A stretch of DNA of 64,000 bases from Shewanella waksmanii ATCC BAA-643 (lineage in GTDB: Bacteria; Pseudomonadota; Gammaproteobacteria; Enterobacterales; Shewanellaceae), in assembly GCF_000518805.1 (NCBI RefSeq), contig NZ_JAEH01000015.1:1-64000 (forward strand). The letters run 5' to 3'. The notes under the pieces were generated by a model. That model was given only the letters and a program-made list of their open reading frames with translations. It was not told the DNA's origin and made no database searches. The stretch's first letter is position 1, and every line of letters starts with the position of its first letter. A program made the position numbers and the translations under genes. Positions 9,374 to 42,098 of the stretch are shown here, in pieces.

Positions 9374-10346
9374 TAGCGACCTCCGAGGTATCAACCATGA
9401 CGCTCATACCCGGTATGAGTTTAATATCTAGCGCGTCGGTAAAATCGATTTCGACTTTAAACCATTTACTTTTGCCCCACGCGGGCTGCGCAATGGCTTG
9501 GCGGCCGATATCACTAATCACACCACTAAACTCGCGTTCTGCCTGGGCATCTAAGCGCAGTGTTACCTGCTGTTGTGGTTGGATCTTATCGACATCGACC
9601 TCGTTTACCCACGCTACAACTTCTAGTTCTTCTAATGCTGGAATCATCGCCACTTGGCGGCCAATTTGTACTGTTTCGCCAACGTTAAACTTCTTGTTAG
9701 ACCAAGGGTCACGCGAATACAGCACTGGCCCAGTTATTTCGGCACTGAGTTCAAGTTGCTCGAGGCCATTTAACGCCTGTTGCAGCTCTAACTGTGCTTT
9801 ATGTTTGTCAATCGCGTGTTGCTCGGTGGTGGCGCGCTGACGATCTAAGGTTTCCTCTAATGCTTGTTTTGCCTTGTTGTATTCCGTATTGGCCTGCATT
9901 AAGTTGAACTGATTCTCGGCATACTCTTTGGCCGCAATAAAATCTGCCGGCACCTCTGCATCGAATTGGGCCTTTTCTACCTCTAATCGACGTTGTTTGA
10001 GATCAAGCTGGGCTTGTAATACCGCCGAGCGTAAGTCAATGGCATTGCTTTGCTCTTGGGCTGTTACCCGCAATAAACTGGCTTCAAGTTGCTCAATTTG
10101 ATTGGCAATTTGGCTTTTATCAAATATAATCACAGGTTGGCCTTTCTGGGCAATCTGCCCTTCGGGCAACATCCACTGAATCTGATATCGCCAAGCATCG
10201 CCGGCTTTAGGCACGGTAAAGGTTTGAGATTGTGCAGACGAGATAGCCCCGGTTAGCAATAAAGGCTCAGTGACTGATTGCGCCAGCAACGTGGTTGGCC
10301 AAGAAAGCAATATAACTGCACTAAGTTGAAACCAGCTACGCAGCAT
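9363..10346 (-). CDS. HlyD-family periplasmic adaptor (first of three)
   Basis: The start is placed at ATG 10346 because GAGGTG lies 6 nt upstream; the longer frame begins inside the ATPase gene. The 327-residue product has a cleavable Sec signal ([12 protein letters not shown]) rather than a lipobox. The adaptor pattern is present: [21 protein letters not shown] as the first lipoyl half, a helical hairpin about 80-200, [20 protein letters not shown] as the second half, and [12 protein letters not shown] in the barrel. A soluble first adaptor followed by two lipidated ones is unusual. The three could form mixed hexameric rings or serve different channels. Confidence 0.82.
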
Positions 10347-11025
10347 AAGTATCACCTCGCGTCTCAATCTCGACGATGCCGCCATCACGCATGCGGATCA
10401 CTCGCTGTGCATACGCTGCAACCTCTTCTTCGTGAGTGACCAAAATAATAGTTTGACCCGCTTGATGCAGCTCGGTGAACAGTTGCATGATCTCTACTGA
10501 GGTTTTGCTATCCAATGCCCCTGTGGGTTCATCGGCCAATAAAATTGCCGGTTTATTGATCAATGAACGCGCAATCGCGACACGTTGTCGCTGACCACCC
10601 GACAGTTGATTTGGGCGATGATGTTGACGGCTATGTAACCCCACTCGGTGTAACAGTGATTGTGCATACTCATCAGCACTATCGGGATCCTCGCTGTAGC
10701 GCATTGGCAACAATATATTTTGCAGGGCACTCAAGCGCGGCAGTAAATGAAAACTCTGGAACACGAAGCCAATCTCTTTGTTTCTCACCGCTGACAGTGC
10801 ATCATCATCAAGCTGAGCGACCTCTTGGCCATTGAGCTGATAATGCCCGCTAGTGGGCTTGTCCAGACAACCAATGATATTCATTAATGTCGATTTCCCG
10901 CTACCCGAAGGCCCCATAATCGCGATAAATTCATTGGCATTTATATTAAAATCAACCCCAGTTAGTGCGGCAACAAGGTTCTCGCCCATCTGATAGGTTT
11001 TGGTTAATTGAGAGACACTAATCAT
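10336..11025 (-). CDS. ABC transporter ATPase (MacB/LolD type)
   Basis: A 229-residue nucleotide-binding subunit, starting at ATG 11025 ([14 protein letters not shown]); a frame 27 nt longer is possible. Walker A is GPSGSGKST, the signature is [15 protein letters not shown], Walker B is [12 protein letters not shown] and the H-loop is VTHEEE. The [15 protein letters not shown]-loop region is typical of the MacB/LolD/FtsE group. It heads an operon with three adaptors and one permease, so it presumably powers a tripartite exporter. No outer-membrane channel gene is present, so a shared TolC is the likely partner. The substrate cannot be told from sequence. Confidence 0.9.
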
Positions 11026-11284
11026 AATATTTCGCTTAACACTGATACTCATCCTTAAGGCTTCACCGGTGTGGAGAAAAATCCATTTTTCGCATAGAGA
11101 GATGCAAGGTCGTACCGCAAGAGCTCGACCTATTTAATAACAGTCACTTTATTGGTTAACTGCCATTGATATTTGAGAAACTTGGGTTACTAAAGTTCAA
11201 CAACGGATTGAATAAGTCAAGAAAAAAGCGAGTTAAAGAGTATTTTTCATACGAAAAACAGTTTATTACAACAAAGTGGCAACA

Positions 11285-35264: not shown

Positions 35265-36518
35265 TTACGCACTGGTATTAATGCGATTGCGCCCGTCAGA
35301 TTTAGCCCGGTACAAGGCGGTATCGGCTGCGCATAACAGCGCGATTGCGCTGGGGTACTCACCCATTTTTTCAACGGCGATTCCTTGGCTTACGCTCACT
35401 CTCACAGAGGGGTGCAAACCCAGTTCAGTAAAGGCCAAGTTGTTAATTGCATGCTGAACCTTTTTGGCGGTTAGCTCCGCCACAAGCTGGTTACAGCCTG
35501 GCAATATCAACGCGAACTCTTCACCACCATAACGGGCAGCAATGCACTGCTCATTAGGCAATACCGCTTTTAATTGCTCGGCTATTAATTTTAAACAGCG
35601 GTCACCATTTATATGGCCAAAGCGGTCGTTAAACAGCTTAAAGTAGTCCACATCAATCATTACTAAGCTCATTGATTGCAAATCACCGGTCGTTTGGGTC
35701 CAGCAGCGTTGCAACACATCATCAAAAGCATGGCGATTGGCTAAGCCTGTTAAGGCGTCAGTGCAGGCTTGTAACTGTAACTTCTGATAGGCCGATTTAT
35801 GATGAGATAAGTCATGCATCACCCCAATAAATAGCGGTCGTGCACCGGTTCGAGTCTGTGGAATGCACGATAATGTTAAATCTACATCAACTTGTTGATC
35901 GCCAGCACTATCAATCACCACCTCTTGGGGACCATAGTAAAAGGTTTTGCCGCGACTGTTTTTCCAACCTATGTACTTTGCTAAATAATCGTCTCTGTAA
36001 CCCTCTGCGAGAAATGCACACCAAGATTGTCCAATCAGCGCCTGTTGAGCATCACCAAATATTTTAGCGGCTAAAGGATTCACCATCTCGATGATGCCTT
36101 CATCGTTAACCACAAAAATGGCTTCGGCGACATAGGCTATAACCGTACTTAGCGCCTGCATAAAATCGCTATCATCTGCGCCGCTATTATTACCTGCTAC
36201 GCTATCAGGGTCTATGTCAGCTTGCTGGCGGAAGTTTTTATCGCCATGTAGTGGCGCCACATTGCTGCGCTCAGTCTCTAACTGACTGCTAATCCCATTG
36301 CCAGCACTTTGGCTGGCTTCAATATTAACTTTTGAATTTGCACCAGTGCCGGCATCTGCATTATTCACCGTGGTCTGCGATGAAAGCGTTACGTTTGCCT
36401 TTTTGCTGCCACTGCTTAATGTGGTATTTAAATCCGGGTTAACCGCATTTGACCAGCTACGGATCAGCTCGACTACATCGAGGTTATGTCGCTGGTTTTT
36501 GGTAGGTGTATCTATCAT
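35265..36518 (-). CDS. PAS-GGDEF diguanylate cyclase
   Basis: The start is set at ATG 36518 with GGGAG 8 nt upstream. The 417-residue protein has a low-complexity Ser/Asn/Ala N-terminus (1-115), a PAS domain (about 120-235) with VVNDEGIIEMVNPLAAKIFG, and a GGDEF domain (about 250-415). The active loop is RYGGEEFALIL and the early motif is DALTGLANRHAF. The usual RxxD product-inhibition site upstream of GGEEF is replaced by NEQC, so feedback control is probably absent. No membrane segment is visible, so the enzyme is probably cytosolic. It makes cyclic di-GMP; a link to the curli genes 10 kb away is conceivable but not shown. Confidence 0.9.
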   Translation of the reverse strand: MIDTPTKNQRHNLDVVELIRSWSNAVNPDLNTTLSSGSKKANVTLSSQTTVNNADAGTGANSKVNIEASQSAGNGISSQLETERSNVAPLHGDKNFRQQADIDPDSVAGNNSGADDSDFMQALSTVIAYVAEAIFVVNDEGIIEMVNPLAAKIFGDAQQALIGQSWCAFLAEGYRDDYLAKYIGWKNSRGKTFYYGPQEVVIDSAGDQQVDVDLTLSCIPQTRTGARPLFIGVMHDLSHHKSAYQKLQLQACTDALTGLANRHAFDDVLQRCWTQTTGDLQSMSLVMIDVDYFKLFNDRFGHINGDRCLKLIAEQLKAVLPNEQCIAARYGGEEFALILPGCNQLVAELTAKKVQHAINNLAFTELGLHPSVRVSVSQGIAVEKMGEYPSAIALLCAADTALYRAKSDGRNRINTSA

Positions 36519-36536
36519 GGTAAAGCTCCCTGTCAC

Positions 36537-37034: not shown

Positions 37035-37853
37035 CTAGAGAGTTGGCTCATTTTTCACTTGCGGATCAGGGCTCACCAACAGCAAATTGCTGTCATCGCT
37101 ACTAAAGATGAACTGAAATTTACTTACCCCTTCATTTTCAATATTGTTGCGTAAAAATATCTGCTGGCCATCATCGCTGATAGTGACCTCTTCAATATGG
37201 GCATCATATGGGTTGGTAAAGCCCGCGCCAACAATCTTAAGCCCTAGTGGTGTACGAGCGCGGTGAACTAAGCGGTAGCTAATAGTTGTACTTTCATTTA
37301 ACTCGACATTGCCATCGCACTCGATTCCTGACTGTTTATATTTAAAGTGCGCCTGCTTGGCTTGGTCCACGGTAACAATCAACCTAATCGGTTTGTCGCC
37401 CTGACATAAAGGCAATGAGGCCTGCGCTGCTAGGCTAGCTTGCAACAACTTGTCACTGTCTGACACTACGCGCGCCTGAGCATAATCAACCAATTGGTGT
37501 TGCATGCCAAACAAAGACAACACCTGATAGACTTGTGACAAGCTCAAATTGCCCTCAAGCAAGCGGCCATCAAATTGAACGCTACCGTCACCAAACTCAA
37601 CACTGTTTATGAATGCTGGCAACTCGTCACCCAGCGCATCCAAGATTGATGGCGCTGCCAACAATGCTTGTAAATCTGCTGTTGATTTTACCGGAGCAAA
37701 AGCGGCATTCACCTTGGCCTGCTGCGCTGGCGCCGTAACGTTATGGACGCTCTCAGCCACGTCATTAGATAGTGGGTTGGCGATAGCTCCAAGTGGCGCT
37801 GCGGTGAGGAGGAATCCGGCTAGCGGTAATAAATGATTTAATGATGTTTTCAC
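37035..37853 (-). CDS. Exported protein with a C-terminal domain shared with the 126-residue neighbour
   Basis: The start is set at a GTG (37853) with AAGGA 6 nt upstream; the longest frame begins with TTG and has no signal there. The 272-residue product has a signal peptide ending near AIANPLS. Residues about 35-150 are an unfamiliar domain with one long Ala/Leu-rich helical region. The C-terminal 120 residues repeat the fold of the protein at 38183: two shared motifs are IVGAGFTNPYDAHIEEVTIS and GVSKFQFIFSSDDSNLLLVS, followed by PDPQV. The shared DPQ...NEP ending brings to mind an NCBI family label of DP-EP type, from memory. Function is unknown. Confidence 0.6.
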   Translation of the reverse strand: MKTSLNHLLPLAGFLLTAAPLGAIANPLSNDVAESVHNVTAPAQQAKVNAAFAPVKSTADLQALLAAPSILDALGDELPAFINSVEFGDGSVQFDGRLLEGNLSLSQVYQVLSLFGMQHQLVDYAQARVVSDSDKLLQASLAAQASLPLCQGDKPIRLIVTVDQAKQAHFKYKQSGIECDGNVELNESTTISYRLVHRARTPLGLKIVGAGFTNPYDAHIEEVTISDDGQQIFLRNNIENEGVSKFQFIFSSDDSNLLLVSPDPQVKNEPTL

Positions 37854-38071
37854 TGTCTTTCCTTGTGTTGATGGGTACAAATCCGTTTGCGACAAAGCTA
37901 CTGAATAAATGTGAGGGAGATCAAGGACGAATGAGTATTTTAAGCCAGAACAGTGATATCGACTAAAAGATAACCAGTGAGAAGAGGATTATCTCGGCAT
38001 TATGCGAATTAAAACAAAAACAATCATAAGTAGCCAAATTATTTGGTATGGGTAGCCAAGCAAAAATAGAG

Positions 38072-38093
38072 AAAGCCCCCATAAGGGGCTTTA
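38072..38093 (-). terminator. Rho-independent terminator after the 126-residue gene
   Basis: AAAGCCCC / GGGGCTTT stem with a 5-nt loop, followed on the minus strand by TCTCTATTTTT. It ends the regulator-effector pair and separates it from the exported paralogue. Confidence 0.7.
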
Positions 38094-38182: not shown

Positions 38183-38563
38183 TCATTGGGTTCCACGATT
38201 GACAATCTGAGGATCCGGGCTAATTAACCAATTAGAAATATTCGGGCATTTGACAATTAGCTGGAACTTAGTAACACCTACAACGCTATCTTCATCTTGC
38301 AATACTAGAGATTGACCCTGGTTGACAACAGCGGCGGAATCAATAACGCCATCACTTGGTGTCAGAAAGCCAGCGCCGATAAACTCGTACCCTTCACTAT
38401 TAGCCAATACATAAGTAATTGTTTCGCCACTCTTTACAATTACATTTCCACAAGTTTGATTTCCATTCTCATCAAAATAACTAAATGAGTGTGACTTAGC
38501 TTTTTCATCATAGCTAATCTCAACAGTTATTGTTGGGCCTTGAGGTAGAGTATTTGTCGACAT
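38183..38563 (-). CDS. 126-residue protein of a two-member local family
   Basis: A single-domain protein without a signal peptide. It reads as a beta-rich fold: TITVEISYDEKAKSHSFSYF, VIVKSGETITYVLANSEGYE, FIGAGFLTPSDGVIDSAAVV, LVLQDEDSVVGVTKFQLIV and LISPDPQIVNRGTQ. The AGF-TP-D and G-V-x-KFQ motifs and the SPDPQ ending are also in the exported protein at 37035. It lies 48 bp after the regulator gene, on the same strand, and is followed by a terminator, so the pair is probably one transcript. Parts of the gene are AT-rich. I do not recognise a characterised family. Confidence 0.7.
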   Translation of the reverse strand: MSTNTLPQGPTITVEISYDEKAKSHSFSYFDENGNQTCGNVIVKSGETITYVLANSEGYEFIGAGFLTPSDGVIDSAAVVNQGQSLVLQDEDSVVGVTKFQLIVKCPNISNWLISPDPQIVNRGTQ

Positions 38564-38611: not shown

Positions 38612-41600
38612 CTACCAAGTAATTCTTTCAGCATCAATTCCTGATTCATTCAGATAATTTGACAGTTCCGAATTTTGGTAGTGTTTATTTTGACAAATTA
38701 AAGCCAAAGCATATATTTCAACATTCAATGGATCTTTATCTTTTTCATAAAGACTGCTAATCATTTTTTCTGCAGAATTACATGTAATCAGCATATCCTC
38801 CTGCTTGTTATGAAAACGAAATTGAACAGCTTGAAGTAAAGTGCTTTTCGCTAAATGACTTTTAAAAAAAACATCATTTGAATACATTTCAACTAGCGAT
38901 TTATACGTATCTATAGCTCTGGTAACAAAACCCTGTGCTAGATACCACTCTCTTTGTGTCTGATAGGCCGCTGCTACAGCCGAATAATAAGCTCCTAATA
39001 GTGAATTTAGGCGTCTCGTACTCTTTATTAACTTACTACCGTCCACTATTAATTCTTCGAGCTCATTAAACTCAACCAGGTTTAACCCACTAGCTTCTCT
39101 GCTATATAATTTAAAAGCTAAGATTTCTAACAAGAGATTTTCGTATATCCAGAGTTCATTCTTTCCATCGATCTTTAAAGCTTCGTTTGTAGCTGCAAGC
39201 CCCTTAGTTATAGTATCTGAAGCAGTTCTATATTTTCCTTTCAACATTTGTAGCTCTGCCAACATTTTGAAACTAACCATAAATTTATCAACTAAATACC
39301 CATTAGCTTTGTTCTGTTCACTCAAATTCAGGTAGTCAGTATGTAGCCGAGAGTATATTGTTTCAGCAGCATTAATATCACCTCTTGTACGAGCTACACT
39401 TGCAAGCCATGAACGTGTATCGGCAACATCAGCAATCAGCATAGGATCGTCAGGGCTTTTTGATAATACCAACAACTTCAACTCTAAAGACTCCTCAAAA
39501 TACCCTTTTGCTTGCTTAAACTCTTGGCGCTTCATCAACAACGACCCTAGCGAATTAGTCGCATAGGACAGTTCCATTAACGCATCGGCATTATCTGGTG
39601 CAATTTGGTACATCTGCTGACTGTATTGATAATACAACTCTAAATACGGCTGAGTGGCTTGCCAGTCACTGGCATCGTACTCAATTTGTCCAAGCCAGAA
39701 GGCGTTGGCACCTAAGGTTTTGAGTAATTCTAGATTTTGCGGCTGTTCAATTAATAAGGCTTCGAGTTTGCTTTTAGCACTGAGCAGTGCGGCGGTGGCT
39801 TCATCAATCTTGCCGCGTGAATAGGCCACCTCGCCCATGGCTTCTAGGGTTTGGCCATGCTGGAAACGGGCATCAAAACTGTAAAAACTGGCGTCACTGG
39901 TATTAGACTGCTCACTGAAATACTCCAGCGCTTTGTTGCTGATGCCATCGAGCAAATCCATACGGCCAATGCCACGCAATTTGTCAGCAAAATCCCCCAC
40001 CATGAATCCCAATAAGTTTTCGGCGGCAAGCCGTTTTTCAAGTGCGCGATTTTCTGCATCTATACTTTTTACCGTCATCAACACTGAAGTTACGGTCAAC
40101 ATAATGAGCACTAACACGGTAGTCCGTAGCGTCCAAGTTTTCACATTGGCGCGCTGATTTGAAGCTTGAATAAACTCAACTTCGCTGGAACTGACACTGA
40201 ATAGCTCACTGCTCGCCAGCGCTTGTGCTTCTTGTAACGGCTTACCAGCAGGTAAAAGGTAAGCCTTATTTTTGTTTTCTTCTTGCCAGCGTTTAGCGAG
40301 ATATTGCAGTCGTGATTTGACACTTAAGCTATCTTTATGGGCAGCAATCCACTCTGTGGCCCTTGGCCAGCGGCGTAACAGGGCTTCGTGGGCGATACTA
40401 AAACACGCGACTTCATTTTGTAGGTGCGAGACAAATAGGCGACTGTCCACCATAGCTTGCACTAATGCTTGTTCGGCATCGCTAGTTAACAGACTCCAGC
40501 GGCCACTGCGACTGGTAATACTGGCATCGTCGTGCTGCAGGGTGACAAGTTGTGATAATACTTTAGGCAGGCTGTCACGCTGCGCTTGGCTTAACAAAGC
40601 AATGGCTTGCTCGGCGTTTTTACCTATGGCGCCCTCTATACCGCCGAGTTCATGATAAACCGACACTAATAGTTGATTGTCATCATCTCGGTTTAGATAT
40701 AGCGCCTGTAAGGTATATTGCAACATAGGCAATACATCTAAACCACTGGCTGCTTCATCGCATAACAGCTCATCCAATGAAATACCAGTTTGTGGGTCAA
40801 CTTGCCAGCTGAGCTGTGCAGCTTGCGCCGGTAAGCGGATCATCTGCAATAGCTCATTGCGAGAAGGAGGCGATAGATCGAAGTGCGCGCCTTTAGCCTT
40901 GCCAGCCATTAATGGCGGATAGGCCACCAACTGCGGATAAAAGTCGTTACGACAAGCGCTTAGCACTAAAATCACCCCAGAGGTGGCAAAACGTTCTATC
41001 AGTTCAACAAACTGGCTACGTTGCTCGTCACTGTATAAGGGCGATGATAATAAGACTTCGAGACGGTCAATAAACAAAGCAAACATCGACAGATGATCGG
41101 CTTGTTCTTGCAATACGGTTTTACAGCGCCTAATAATGTATTGAGGTTGTTCTGCTAGCTTGCTGGCAATGTCTTCAGCACTTTCGCCATAAAACACCGG
41201 TACATCATTTATCTCCCAGTCTAGCAGTGCACTGGCAAGCTCTAACATTAATTGATTCGGGCCAACATCAGCCAGATCTAAGCTAGTGTAGCCATTAACT
41301 TTAATGCCATTGTAACCTTGCGGTGTCATCAGGTTAGGCAACACCCCCGCTTGTACTAATGATGATTTACCACTACCACTGGGCCCCAGCACTAAGCAAA
41401 AACCGCGGCCAAAATGCACCTGATTGGCAATTCGGTCTAGCAAGGTATCAACTTGGGCTTTACGACCAAAAAATACCGTAGCATGTTCAGGGGTGTAGGC
41501 CTGTAGCCCAGGGAATGGCGACGCACCTTGCCAAGTATTGGTCGCCGCGCCCTGCTGATCACCCAATAAGTACTTTATTGGTGCTAAAGTGCGATAACCA

Positions 41601-41884
41601 CGTTTGCGGATAGTTTCAATGTAGGTAGGAGCGCTAGCACTGTCGCCAAGGGCACGGCGCAATTGGTTAATAATTTTGTGTAGTGGATTATCACCTACGT
41701 CAAAATCTGGCCAACAATGGCTGACGATTTCATCACTGCTGAGCACTTCACCGTCGTGTTGACACAACAACTTAAGCACATCCATTGCTTTGGGCTCAAG
41801 TTGCTTAACGGTATCTCCCGCGCGCAGACGGTTTGATTTAGGTTCTACTTGCCAATCACCGAAGTAAAAGGTTGTCTCATCCAT
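38612..41884 (-). CDS. Membrane-anchored winged-helix/nSTAND/TPR regulator
   Basis: The start is set at ATG 41884 (1090 residues); a TTG 60 nt earlier is the alternative. Residues 1-105 are an OmpR/CadC-type winged helix (LEPKAMDVLKLLCQHDGEVL, RRALGD, YIETIRKRGYRTL). An nSTAND1-type ATPase follows (about 120-540), with FPGLQAYTPEHATVFFGR, the P-loop GPSGSGKSS near 165 and a Walker B FALFIDRLEVLL near 267. One membrane helix lies at about 585-608. After it AENLLGFMVGDFADKLRGIG precedes TPR repeats to the end. This topology places the ATPase and DNA-binding parts in the cytoplasm and the TPRs outside. The 3' part is strongly AT-rich. Confidence 0.78.
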   Translation of the reverse strand: MDETTFYFGDWQVEPKSNRLRAGDTVKQLEPKAMDVLKLLCQHDGEVLSSDEIVSHCWPDFDVGDNPLHKIINQLRRALGDSASAPTYIETIRKRGYRTLAPIKYLLGDQQGAATNTWQGASPFPGLQAYTPEHATVFFGRKAQVDTLLDRIANQVHFGRGFCLVLGPSGSGKSSLVQAGVLPNLMTPQGYNGIKVNGYTSLDLADVGPNQLMLELASALLDWEINDVPVFYGESAEDIASKLAEQPQYIIRRCKTVLQEQADHLSMFALFIDRLEVLLSSPLYSDEQRSQFVELIERFATSGVILVLSACRNDFYPQLVAYPPLMAGKAKGAHFDLSPPSRNELLQMIRLPAQAAQLSWQVDPQTGISLDELLCDEAASGLDVLPMLQYTLQALYLNRDDDNQLLVSVYHELGGIEGAIGKNAEQAIALLSQAQRDSLPKVLSQLVTLQHDDASITSRSGRWSLLTSDAEQALVQAMVDSRLFVSHLQNEVACFSIAHEALLRRWPRATEWIAAHKDSLSVKSRLQYLAKRWQEENKNKAYLLPAGKPLQEAQALASSELFSVSSSEVEFIQASNQRANVKTWTLRTTVLVLIMLTVTSVLMTVKSIDAENRALEKRLAAENLLGFMVGDFADKLRGIGRMDLLDGISNKALEYFSEQSNTSDASFYSFDARFQHGQTLEAMGEVAYSRGKIDEATAALLSAKSKLEALLIEQPQNLELLKTLGANAFWLGQIEYDASDWQATQPYLELYYQYSQQMYQIAPDNADALMELSYATNSLGSLLMKRQEFKQAKGYFEESLELKLLVLSKSPDDPMLIADVADTRSWLASVARTRGDINAAETIYSRLHTDYLNLSEQNKANGYLVDKFMVSFKMLAELQMLKGKYRTASDTITKGLAATNEALKIDGKNELWIYENLLLEILAFKLYSREASGLNLVEFNELEELIVDGSKLIKSTRRLNSLLGAYYSAVAAAYQTQREWYLAQGFVTRAIDTYKSLVEMYSNDVFFKSHLAKSTLLQAVQFRFHNKQEDMLITCNSAEKMISSLYEKDKDPLNVEIYALALICQNKHYQNSELSNYLNESGIDAERITW

Positions 41885-42098
41885 GGAAACTTTTGCCTTA
41901 TTCGATTCACTCAGCTTTTGTGCTGACAGCAGTATCCGACTCAATCTACCAAGCTATTGGTATCATTTATATTTATAAGTTTATTTTACAGCGCGCTCAT
42001 TGAGCGTTTAGCGGTTGGTTTAGCTAAGTAACTACTCTAATTGGCTTAAGACAGCGATGTCAAATTTGACTCAAGTTGAAATGAAAAAGCGTACTTTC

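Follow-up and report, generated by a model that had tools for sequence, protein, structure and literature searches.

Why should the base composition of a bacterial gene change in the middle of its reading frame? The question is raised by a regulator gene of Shewanella waksmanii ATCC BAA-643, which occupies positions 38612..41944 of the stretch that we analyzed (the window: 64,000 nucleotides, positions 1 to 64,000 of contig NZ_JAEH01000015.1). The gene, like all features of the window described below, lies on the minus strand. It encodes 1110 amino acids from a TTG start in the list of open reading frames (ORFs) and combines a winged helix, an nSTAND1 nucleoside triphosphatase (NTPase), a hydrophobic segment and a tetratricopeptide repeat (TPR) solenoid. 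A gene for a small protein of the DP-EP family, 126 amino acids long, follows at 38183..38563. Our results leave little doubt that the C-terminal end of the regulator (the C end) is a block that has been exchanged recurrently, often together with the DP-EP gene, between flanks that are more stable.

The question goes back to a reading of the letters alone (the sequence-only reading), which noted that the TPR-coding third of the regulator and the start of the adjoining gene are AT-rich, and suggested that the sensor end and the downstream partner were exchanged as a block onto a conserved N-terminal module (N module). The base counts it gave are exact on recount, with 17 G+C of 60 at 38641-38700 and 32 of 60 at 40561-40620. 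The checks it proposed, sliding G+C content (GC) and codon use, both find the drop. GC is 0.44-0.50 at 39.5-41.9 kb and 0.28-0.38 from 38.45 to about 39.5 kb. GC at third codon positions (GC3) falls from about 0.45 to 0.27 past residue ~840; blocks of 60 codons range over 0.38-0.58 before residue 840 and over 0.20-0.32 behind it. The last 230 codons have a GC3 of 0.27, compared with a mean of 0.449 (SD 0.026) in 10 flanking coding segments. Low GC then runs across the 126-residue gene (0.36-0.40 in 300-base windows) and on to about 37.9 kb; the next gene, at 37035..37895, has ordinary GC.

Relatives of the regulator show that this is not a peculiarity of one genome. Among 60 related genomes we found 22 further long matches (L002-L023), of which L007, at a contig end, and L023, matched over residues 21-858, are partial. 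A scan of named-species genomes gave 80 loci (L031-L110), the best 80 of 88 encoding a relative, mainly from Shewanella, Rheinheimera, Arsukibacterium, Alishewanella, Pseudoalteromonas and Paraglaciecola. The two sets partly share genomes and were not summed. Together with the window the named loci make 81. Complete regulator frames with downstream DNA are available in 78 of them; L043 and L096 (contig ends) and L101 (interrupted regulator frame, DP-EP retained) were left out. In L101 (Shewanella sp. HN-41, 9940-11089) the frame is broken after 383 codons, and DP-EP stands 2.2 kb on.

In all 78 loci GC3 of the C end is below that of the N module (mean difference -0.170). The same difference in 178 control ORFs, which are flank ORFs of at least 500 codons, is +0.005 (SD 0.040), and none of them is as extreme as the regulator median. 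The C end is the GC3 minimum of its locus in 57 of 77 loci; 39 of 811 flank segments are equally low or lower. Averaged over the 78 loci, GC is above the flanks from 3150 to about 1050 nt upstream of the regulator stop, 0.04-0.10 under them from 750 nt before to 600 nt past the stop, 0.03 under them at 600-900 nt past it and from there on within 0.023 (0.012 below at 900 nt). The low stretch takes in the DP-EP gene, whose GC is below that of the upstream flank in 70 of 78 loci. C-end and N-module GC3 correlate at 0.48 across the 78 loci; the alleles therefore partly follow their host.

The drop is small in some relatives, clearly so in L005 and L016 and mildly in L009, L015 and L019. Among the 77 measured named loci it is less than 0.08 in 11 (L032, L047, L073, L086, L087, L088, L090, L092, L093, L105 and L106). 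The last of these, from Parachitinimonas caeni, which we take to be a betaproteobacterium, is a distant outlier that has the regulator and DP-EP without a GC drop; in total GC its C end (0.656) is richer than its N module (0.623). Since the break recurs in most relatives, a single one-off transfer in this genome is ruled out.

Does protein and DNA identity break where composition does? Mean pairwise protein identity is 0.44-0.82 up to residue 870 and 0.15-0.31 after it. The sharp fall is also seen between close relatives. We defined near pairs by an N-module identity of at least 0.85, which gives 124 pairs that are not mutually independent. In 106 of them the loss in DNA identity is at least 0.15, from a mean of 0.865 to 0.557. 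The sequence-only reading had expected the fall near residue 780, which is too early: in near pairs the median position is residue 832 (interquartile range 811-852, full range 678-939), and between the window and its relatives the break lies within residues 838-897. It had also named, as the outcome that would speak against an exchange, uniform conservation of the whole protein in relatives with the same gradient. Nearly all relatives share the gradient; their conservation is anything but uniform, as identity collapses.

In L002/L008 identity is 91-100% per 30 codons, falls in one step from 98% to 62% and stays at 33-70%; L031/L034 also breaks abruptly in its DNA, after 90-100% per 30 codons. 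There are also mosaics of the reverse kind, in which DNA identity rises by at least 0.05 (9 of the 124 near pairs, at residues 288-832; another 9 show neither drop nor rise). A further mosaic is L020/L021, where identity starts at 72-94% in 11 segments, then reaches 94-99% in another 10 and ends at 99-100% in the final 17. In L076/L102 synonymous divergence (dS) falls from 0.34 in the N module to 0.008 in the C end. We see no route other than recombination to such mosaics and abrupt breaks.

In all 12 comparable pairs the C end (0.12-0.94) exceeds the N module (0.04-0.10) in the ratio of nonsynonymous to synonymous divergence (dN/dS). This makes diversifying selection on the C end plausible.

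If the C end is exchanged, does the DP-EP gene travel with it? The cyclase gene further downstream serves as a comparison (PAS-GGDEF diguanylate cyclase, 35265..36536, recognized by Pfam); its homologs are the only other neighbor common to most loci. For 11 chosen pairs we compared DNA identity in the N module, C end, DP-EP and cyclase, in this order. Values for L063/L065 are 0.79, 0.93, 0.94 and 0.77, and for L076/L102 0.91, 0.99, 0.99 and 0.93, so that the C end and DP-EP are alike between more diverged flanks. The opposite holds for L031/L034 (0.96, 0.48, 0.69, 0.96) and L039/L041 (0.93, 0.54, 0.65, 0.90). At N-module identities of at least 0.85, DP-EP identity averages 0.67-0.79 and cyclase identity 0.84-0.91.

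The same question can be asked of whole clades. With N-module similarity removed, C-end and DP-EP similarity correlate at 0.30 in Shewanella (25 loci; 7 of 5000 permutations reach the observed value), at 0.64 in the Rheinheimera clade (30 loci; 0 of 5000) and at 0.86 in Pseudoalteromonas (13 loci; 0 of 5000). The corresponding values for the C end and the cyclase, for the 70 of 78 loci with a cyclase, are -0.15 in Shewanella (22 loci) and -0.14 in Pseudoalteromonas (13 loci). Trees point in the same direction. The Rheinheimera clade has 14 supported C-end splits, of which the N-module tree holds 1 and contradicts 12, the cyclase tree holds 1 and contradicts 13, and the DP-EP tree holds 8 and contradicts 3. 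N-module and cyclase trees share 9 of 11 splits in Shewanella, with none contradicted, and 7 of 9 in Pseudoalteromonas, with 1 contradicted. To judge from the trees, the C end is clearly in conflict with the history of the N module in all three clades, and its joint travel with DP-EP is clear in the Rheinheimera clade and partial in Shewanella and Pseudoalteromonas.

Hence the proposal of a block exchange onto a conserved N module stands for the C end, through L063/L065, L031/L034 and the trees. The part that made the downstream gene a co-exchanged partner stands as "often", given the covariation in three clades, and fails as "always" (L034/L037, see below). What goes beyond the sequence-only reading is that the exchange is recurrent and family-wide, that it cuts through one solenoid, that the partner comes from a structurally solved family and that this partner is sometimes left behind.

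What are the relatives of the allele in the window itself? Among 77 loci its C end is closest to that of L033 from S. benthica (identity 0.376), and so is its DP-EP (0.603), although by N module L033 is only the fifth-ranked locus. For DP-EP the next places go to loci of Rheinheimera and of related metagenome genomes, with 0.50-0.53. The nearest N module is that of L036 (uncultured Shewanella), with a DP-EP identity of 0.37. Taken at face value, this hints at allele classes common to several genera. It is only a hint because the N-module identities to the top relatives are nearly tied (0.68-0.69), and for the same reason the exchange in this genome cannot be dated.

What kind of protein is cut in this way? 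The control end of the regulator is conserved. It consists of a Trans_reg_C winged helix (residues 48-118, 41591..41803; Pfam PF00486, E 6e-17, 61.9 bits against a cut-off of 26.2) and an nSTAND1 NTPase (residues 143-560, 40265..41518; PF20703, E 1.1e-86, 292.3 bits against 27.1). A single hydrophobic stretch, read by eye and not by a predictor, follows at residues ~608-625 (40070..40123) and is probably membrane-spanning. Pfam also gives weak TPR matches. AlphaFold2, run on residues 632-1110 with 72 sequences (71 of the 77 listed relatives entered the alignment), predicts a continuous all-helical solenoid with a mean predicted local distance difference test score of 92.4 and a predicted TM-score (pTM) of 0.90. 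Its top Foldseek matches are TPR superhelices (E 7.6e-8). Since the model is a single continuous solenoid, the break falls within one fold and not between two domains. It separates a proximal half (residues 632-832, 39449..40051), better conserved across species, from an AT-rich, hypervariable and exchanged distal half (residues ~833-1110, 38615..39448).

The distal half varies within limits. Mean entropy there is 2.2-3.2 bits per 20 positions, despite which Gly855, Cys1055 (codon 38780..38782) and Cys1084 (codon 38693..38695) are invariant in the 72-row alignment (A2; both cysteines in 72 of 72 rows). In a second alignment of 41 rows (A3) Cys1084 is nearly, not fully, invariant. The length from residue 632 onward is kept within 442-498 in the 72 rows. 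Conservation of length and cysteines in so variable a part suggests a disulfide and a periplasmic location of the solenoid.

The DP-EP protein belongs to Pfam PF08985 (E 7.3e-20; 72 bits against a cut-off of 25), and its C-terminal motif is SPDPQIVN. Its residues 7-123 of 126 are homologous to the solved "Peptidase" chains 3n55 and 3njf-3njn (E 2.6e-19), which we take to be S. oneidensis SO1698. The window protein shares with the solved chains their homology and the S-x-D-P motif, which reads SPDP here and is kept by its relatives (the Asp by 77 of 78, the Pro by all 78); it differs in the Asp of the GDxT motif. Several deposited chains of the family stop at the Asp of S-x-D-P, and constructs altered at GDxT, S, D or P of the motifs are full-length chains. 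This fits self-cleavage at S-x-D-P in the solved proteins, which is reportedly a subject of the DUF1888 structure paper of Osipiuk from 2012. The GDxT Asp (Ala in 3njh), presumably catalytic, is Asn in the window protein and Asp in only 30 of 78 relatives. With S-x-D-P conserved and this Asp not, self-cleavage may be limited to one branch of the family and not be general. The missing Asp lowers the claim of self-cleavage for the window protein, not its membership in the PF08985 profile. To our knowledge the family (DP-EP, or DUF1888) has solved structures and no known role. In our literature search, which was thin on subscription journals, no paper ties it to a polymorphic regulator or covers this system.

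Downstream of the DP-EP gene is a terminator-like hairpin at 38072..38092, one of 4 such sites in the region where 4.9 are expected by chance. It is followed by a second DP-EP gene (37035..37895), which lies outside the AT-rich block and has a signal-peptide-like start (by eye) and its own N-terminal domain, for which no Pfam family was found. Such a second gene is present in 9 of 78 loci (the window, L035, L036, L039, L041, L045, L071, L072 and L097). All copies have their own N-terminal domain and, where the frame is complete, a signal-peptide-like start, and they resemble each other more than they resemble the first DP-EP of their own locus.

Regulator and DP-EP are rarely found apart. In all 78 complete loci the DP-EP gene is directly downstream on the same strand. 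In a genus sample of 129 genomes the regulator is found in 73 (E ≤1e-100) and DP-EP in 72, both together in 71. Two genomes have a regulator and no DP-EP: in G028 the contig ends within the locus, and in G125 the match to the 811-residue query covers only residues 2-585, close to a contig start. In one Shewanella genome DP-EP is matched in part (G071:C129:86206-86382, profile positions 59-119), with no regulator match at E 1e-100. DP-EP occurs in 2 of 369 genomes of a class sample, one of them the window's own; the other has a regulator-like stretch upstream of DP-EP (query residues 637-942, 37% identity) in a locus of 3.3 kb. Carriage by a mobile element is disfavored, as a tblastn search of plasmid and phage collections with the window DP-EP as the one query gave no match at E 0.001.

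In 71 of 81 loci the same strand carries a cyclase homolog downstream, with a median distance of 0.7 kb and a maximum of 8.3 kb. The homologs were defined by single-linkage grouping, and as GGDEF proteins are common in these genera, the more distant ones may be there by chance. Of the 10 loci without one, 4 have no more than 2.2 kb of downstream DNA. In PMC2262068, S. oneidensis SO1699 is given as a transcriptional regulator under repression by ArcA. Its number, which follows SO1698, would make it the regulator described here.

How might such a system work? The starting point is a conserved control module, made of the winged helix, the nSTAND1 switch, the hydrophobic segment and the first half of the TPR solenoid, onto which a hypervariable, AT-rich distal half is swapped by recombination across species, often with the adjacent DP-EP gene. 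We propose that the regulator would act like ToxR or CadC, with its DNA-binding and NTPase domains in the cytoplasm and the solenoid, perhaps held by a Cys1055-Cys1084 disulfide, in the periplasm. The distal solenoid would recognize a variable ligand, most likely the co-inherited DP-EP or something that DP-EP modifies. The ligand-bound state would switch the NTPase and hence transcription of neighboring genes, and the probable output would be the diguanylate cyclase (cyclic di-GMP, surface life). Under diversifying selection on recognition, swaps of matched pairs from a pool of AT-rich alleles would be favored. That the cyclase is controlled by a matched pair, with the C end as receptor and DP-EP as partner, seems to us somewhat better supported than its negation. 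One could go further and propose a Gram-negative self-recognition system similar to pherotypes, in which every lineage has one out of many matched alleles of a periplasmic TPR receptor and a ligand (DP-EP or its C-terminal P-[QE]-[IV]-x-N peptide), these are swapped as a unit across species and genera, and the match sets cyclic di-GMP through the cyclase. We offer this only tentatively and would not bet on it.

Several observations weigh against the picture of an exchanged block that carries a matched partner. Some concern the exchange. None of the 77 loci is near enough to show the exchange event behind the window's allele, the best C end being 38% identical, and several of the 9 rising pairs share a tract that begins deep in the N module (residues 288-591). 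None of the 12 pairs reaches a dN/dS of 1, and the highest value, 0.94, comes from very few changes; positive selection therefore falls short of proof. Others concern the pairing. In the order used above, identities are 0.95, 0.52, 0.87 and 0.95 for L034/L037, 0.82, 0.49, 0.86 and 0.78 for L034/L098, and 0.78, 0.49, 0.80 and 0.76 for L061/L100. Protein identity within the group L034/L037/L097/L098 is 0.90-0.92 in DP-EP and 0.18-0.38 in the C end. Since DP-EP stays similar here while the C end differs, the pairing is not strict. Of the supported C-end splits, the DP-EP tree holds only 4 of 8 in Shewanella, where it contradicts 2, and 2 of 6 in Pseudoalteromonas, where it contradicts 3. In the Rheinheimera clade the C end covaries significantly with the cyclase as well (r 0.28, 30 loci, 0 of 5000 permutations), and N-module and cyclase trees share 6 of 16 splits with 7 contradicted, so that the cyclase is no clean marker of N-module history in this clade. 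Because of both results, the exchanged tract may reach further there. Last, the first DP-EP has no signal peptide visible by eye in the alignment, although the solenoid is expected in the periplasm. When solenoid and DP-EP were folded as one read-through chain, DP-EP remained unplaced (pTM 0.72, with about 0.73 expected if unplaced and 0.86 if placed). That fold was run with a short linker and 23 paired rows, and with no control, from an alignment of 22 in-frame read-through relatives and 18 solenoid-only sequences (55 of 78 loci are unsuitable in frame); it weakens the case for direct contact between solenoid and DP-EP without settling it.

Could the data be explained differently? One could argue that nothing is exchanged and that the C end is a fast-evolving, weakly constrained tail of drifting composition. 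Higher C-end dN/dS in all 12 comparable pairs and an AT-rich tail in nearly all relatives would fit. Such a tail does not produce abrupt DNA breaks (L002/L008, L031/L034) or supported tree conflict, nor would it keep its length and two cysteines, and it is ruled out by reverse mosaics such as L076/L102, with a C-end dS of 0.008 against 0.34 for the N module. We consider it very improbable. A different argument accepts the exchange and denies the partnership: the C end recombines independently, and DP-EP covaries because it sits in the same tract, with no functional tie. The two genes are adjacent, covariation in Shewanella is weaker (r 0.30), DP-EP can keep its identity while the C end changes, and the next gene covaries somewhat in the Rheinheimera clade (r 0.28). 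Linkage without function does not readily account for the near-perfect co-occurrence (71 genomes common to 73 and 72), for a DP-EP gene that is itself below the upstream flank in GC in 70 of 78 loci, or for DP-EP being more diverged (0.67-0.79) than the cyclase (0.84-0.91) at N-module identities of at least 0.85. Linkage alone is therefore unlikely in our view.

A further alternative keeps the sensor and changes what it senses. The distal solenoid could detect foreign molecules of phages or competitors, with DP-EP as a hitchhiking accessory or decoy. The STAND-TPR layout resembles Avs-type sensors; hypervariability and AT-rich exchange are typical of arms races, and DP-EP is sometimes left behind when the C end changes. 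Yet PADLOC gives only mad3 (E 3.6e-5) and mad8 (E 0.0012) as matches, neither of which extends beyond the P-loop region, and this leads us to reject membership in the Avs-type defense family. The hydrophobic segment, if it spans the membrane, places the solenoid outside the cytoplasm, and the regular presence of the cyclase (71 of 81 loci) and DP-EP (78 of 78 complete loci) also speaks against this reading. A sensor of non-self is a doubtful explanation, if a little less so than linkage alone. Delivery of DP-EP into neighboring cells by type VI secretion, where the solenoid would sense it, would agree with the lack of a signal peptide (by eye) in the first DP-EP and has an analogy in Ids self-recognition in Proteus. 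The type VI sheath (PF05591) is found in only 16 of 73 regulator-positive and 12 of 56 regulator-negative genomes, hence it is ruled out as a general route, and we give this idea hardly any credence.

The matched receptor and partner that we favor has relatives in design among known systems. ToxR- and CadC-type regulators likewise have an N-terminal Trans_reg_C domain, one hydrophobic segment (here by eye) and a C-terminal sensor part. The regulator described here differs from them in the nSTAND1 NTPase between DNA-binding domain and hydrophobic segment and in its sensor, which is a long TPR solenoid with a distal half that is swapped from species to species. RRNPP peptide receptors are cytoplasmic proteins that join an XRE-type helix-turn-helix to TPRs and have no membrane segment; the Trans_reg_C-type winged helix, the intervening NTPase and the hydrophobic segment ahead of the TPR exclude the regulator from this group. 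The polymorphic toxins CdiA and Rhs also join a conserved N-terminal part to an AT-rich variable C end with a small gene downstream. The variable end of the regulator is instead a continuous TPR fold, and a Pfam scan of the window proteins found no toxin domain in it. Closest in logic are pherotype systems such as Agr and ComQXPA, in which a polymorphic sensor and an adjacent gene are exchanged, in many cases jointly, beside a conserved signaling module. The cassette shares with them a sensor and an adjacent gene whose common history is separate from that of the conserved module, as covariation in three clades and, in part, the trees indicate. It differs in being Gram-negative and in its one-component nSTAND regulator and TPR sensor, and it is not known to use a processed peptide signal.

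Taken as a whole, the cassette looks like an undescribed matched receptor-and-partner system of related marine bacteria. Our results connect DP-EP/DUF1888 with a regulator that is polymorphic and with a gene that is its probable output. The bacteria concerned are marine and cultivable, and they presumably include the laboratory organism Shewanella oneidensis. Even without a matched pair, the locus is a clear case of recurrent intragenic exchange marked by composition, and such exchange explains a GC break within a gene that would otherwise be read as one odd transfer. If the receptor and its ligand are indeed matched, they would form a new recognition system, for which a natural library of alleles would already be present in sequenced genomes.

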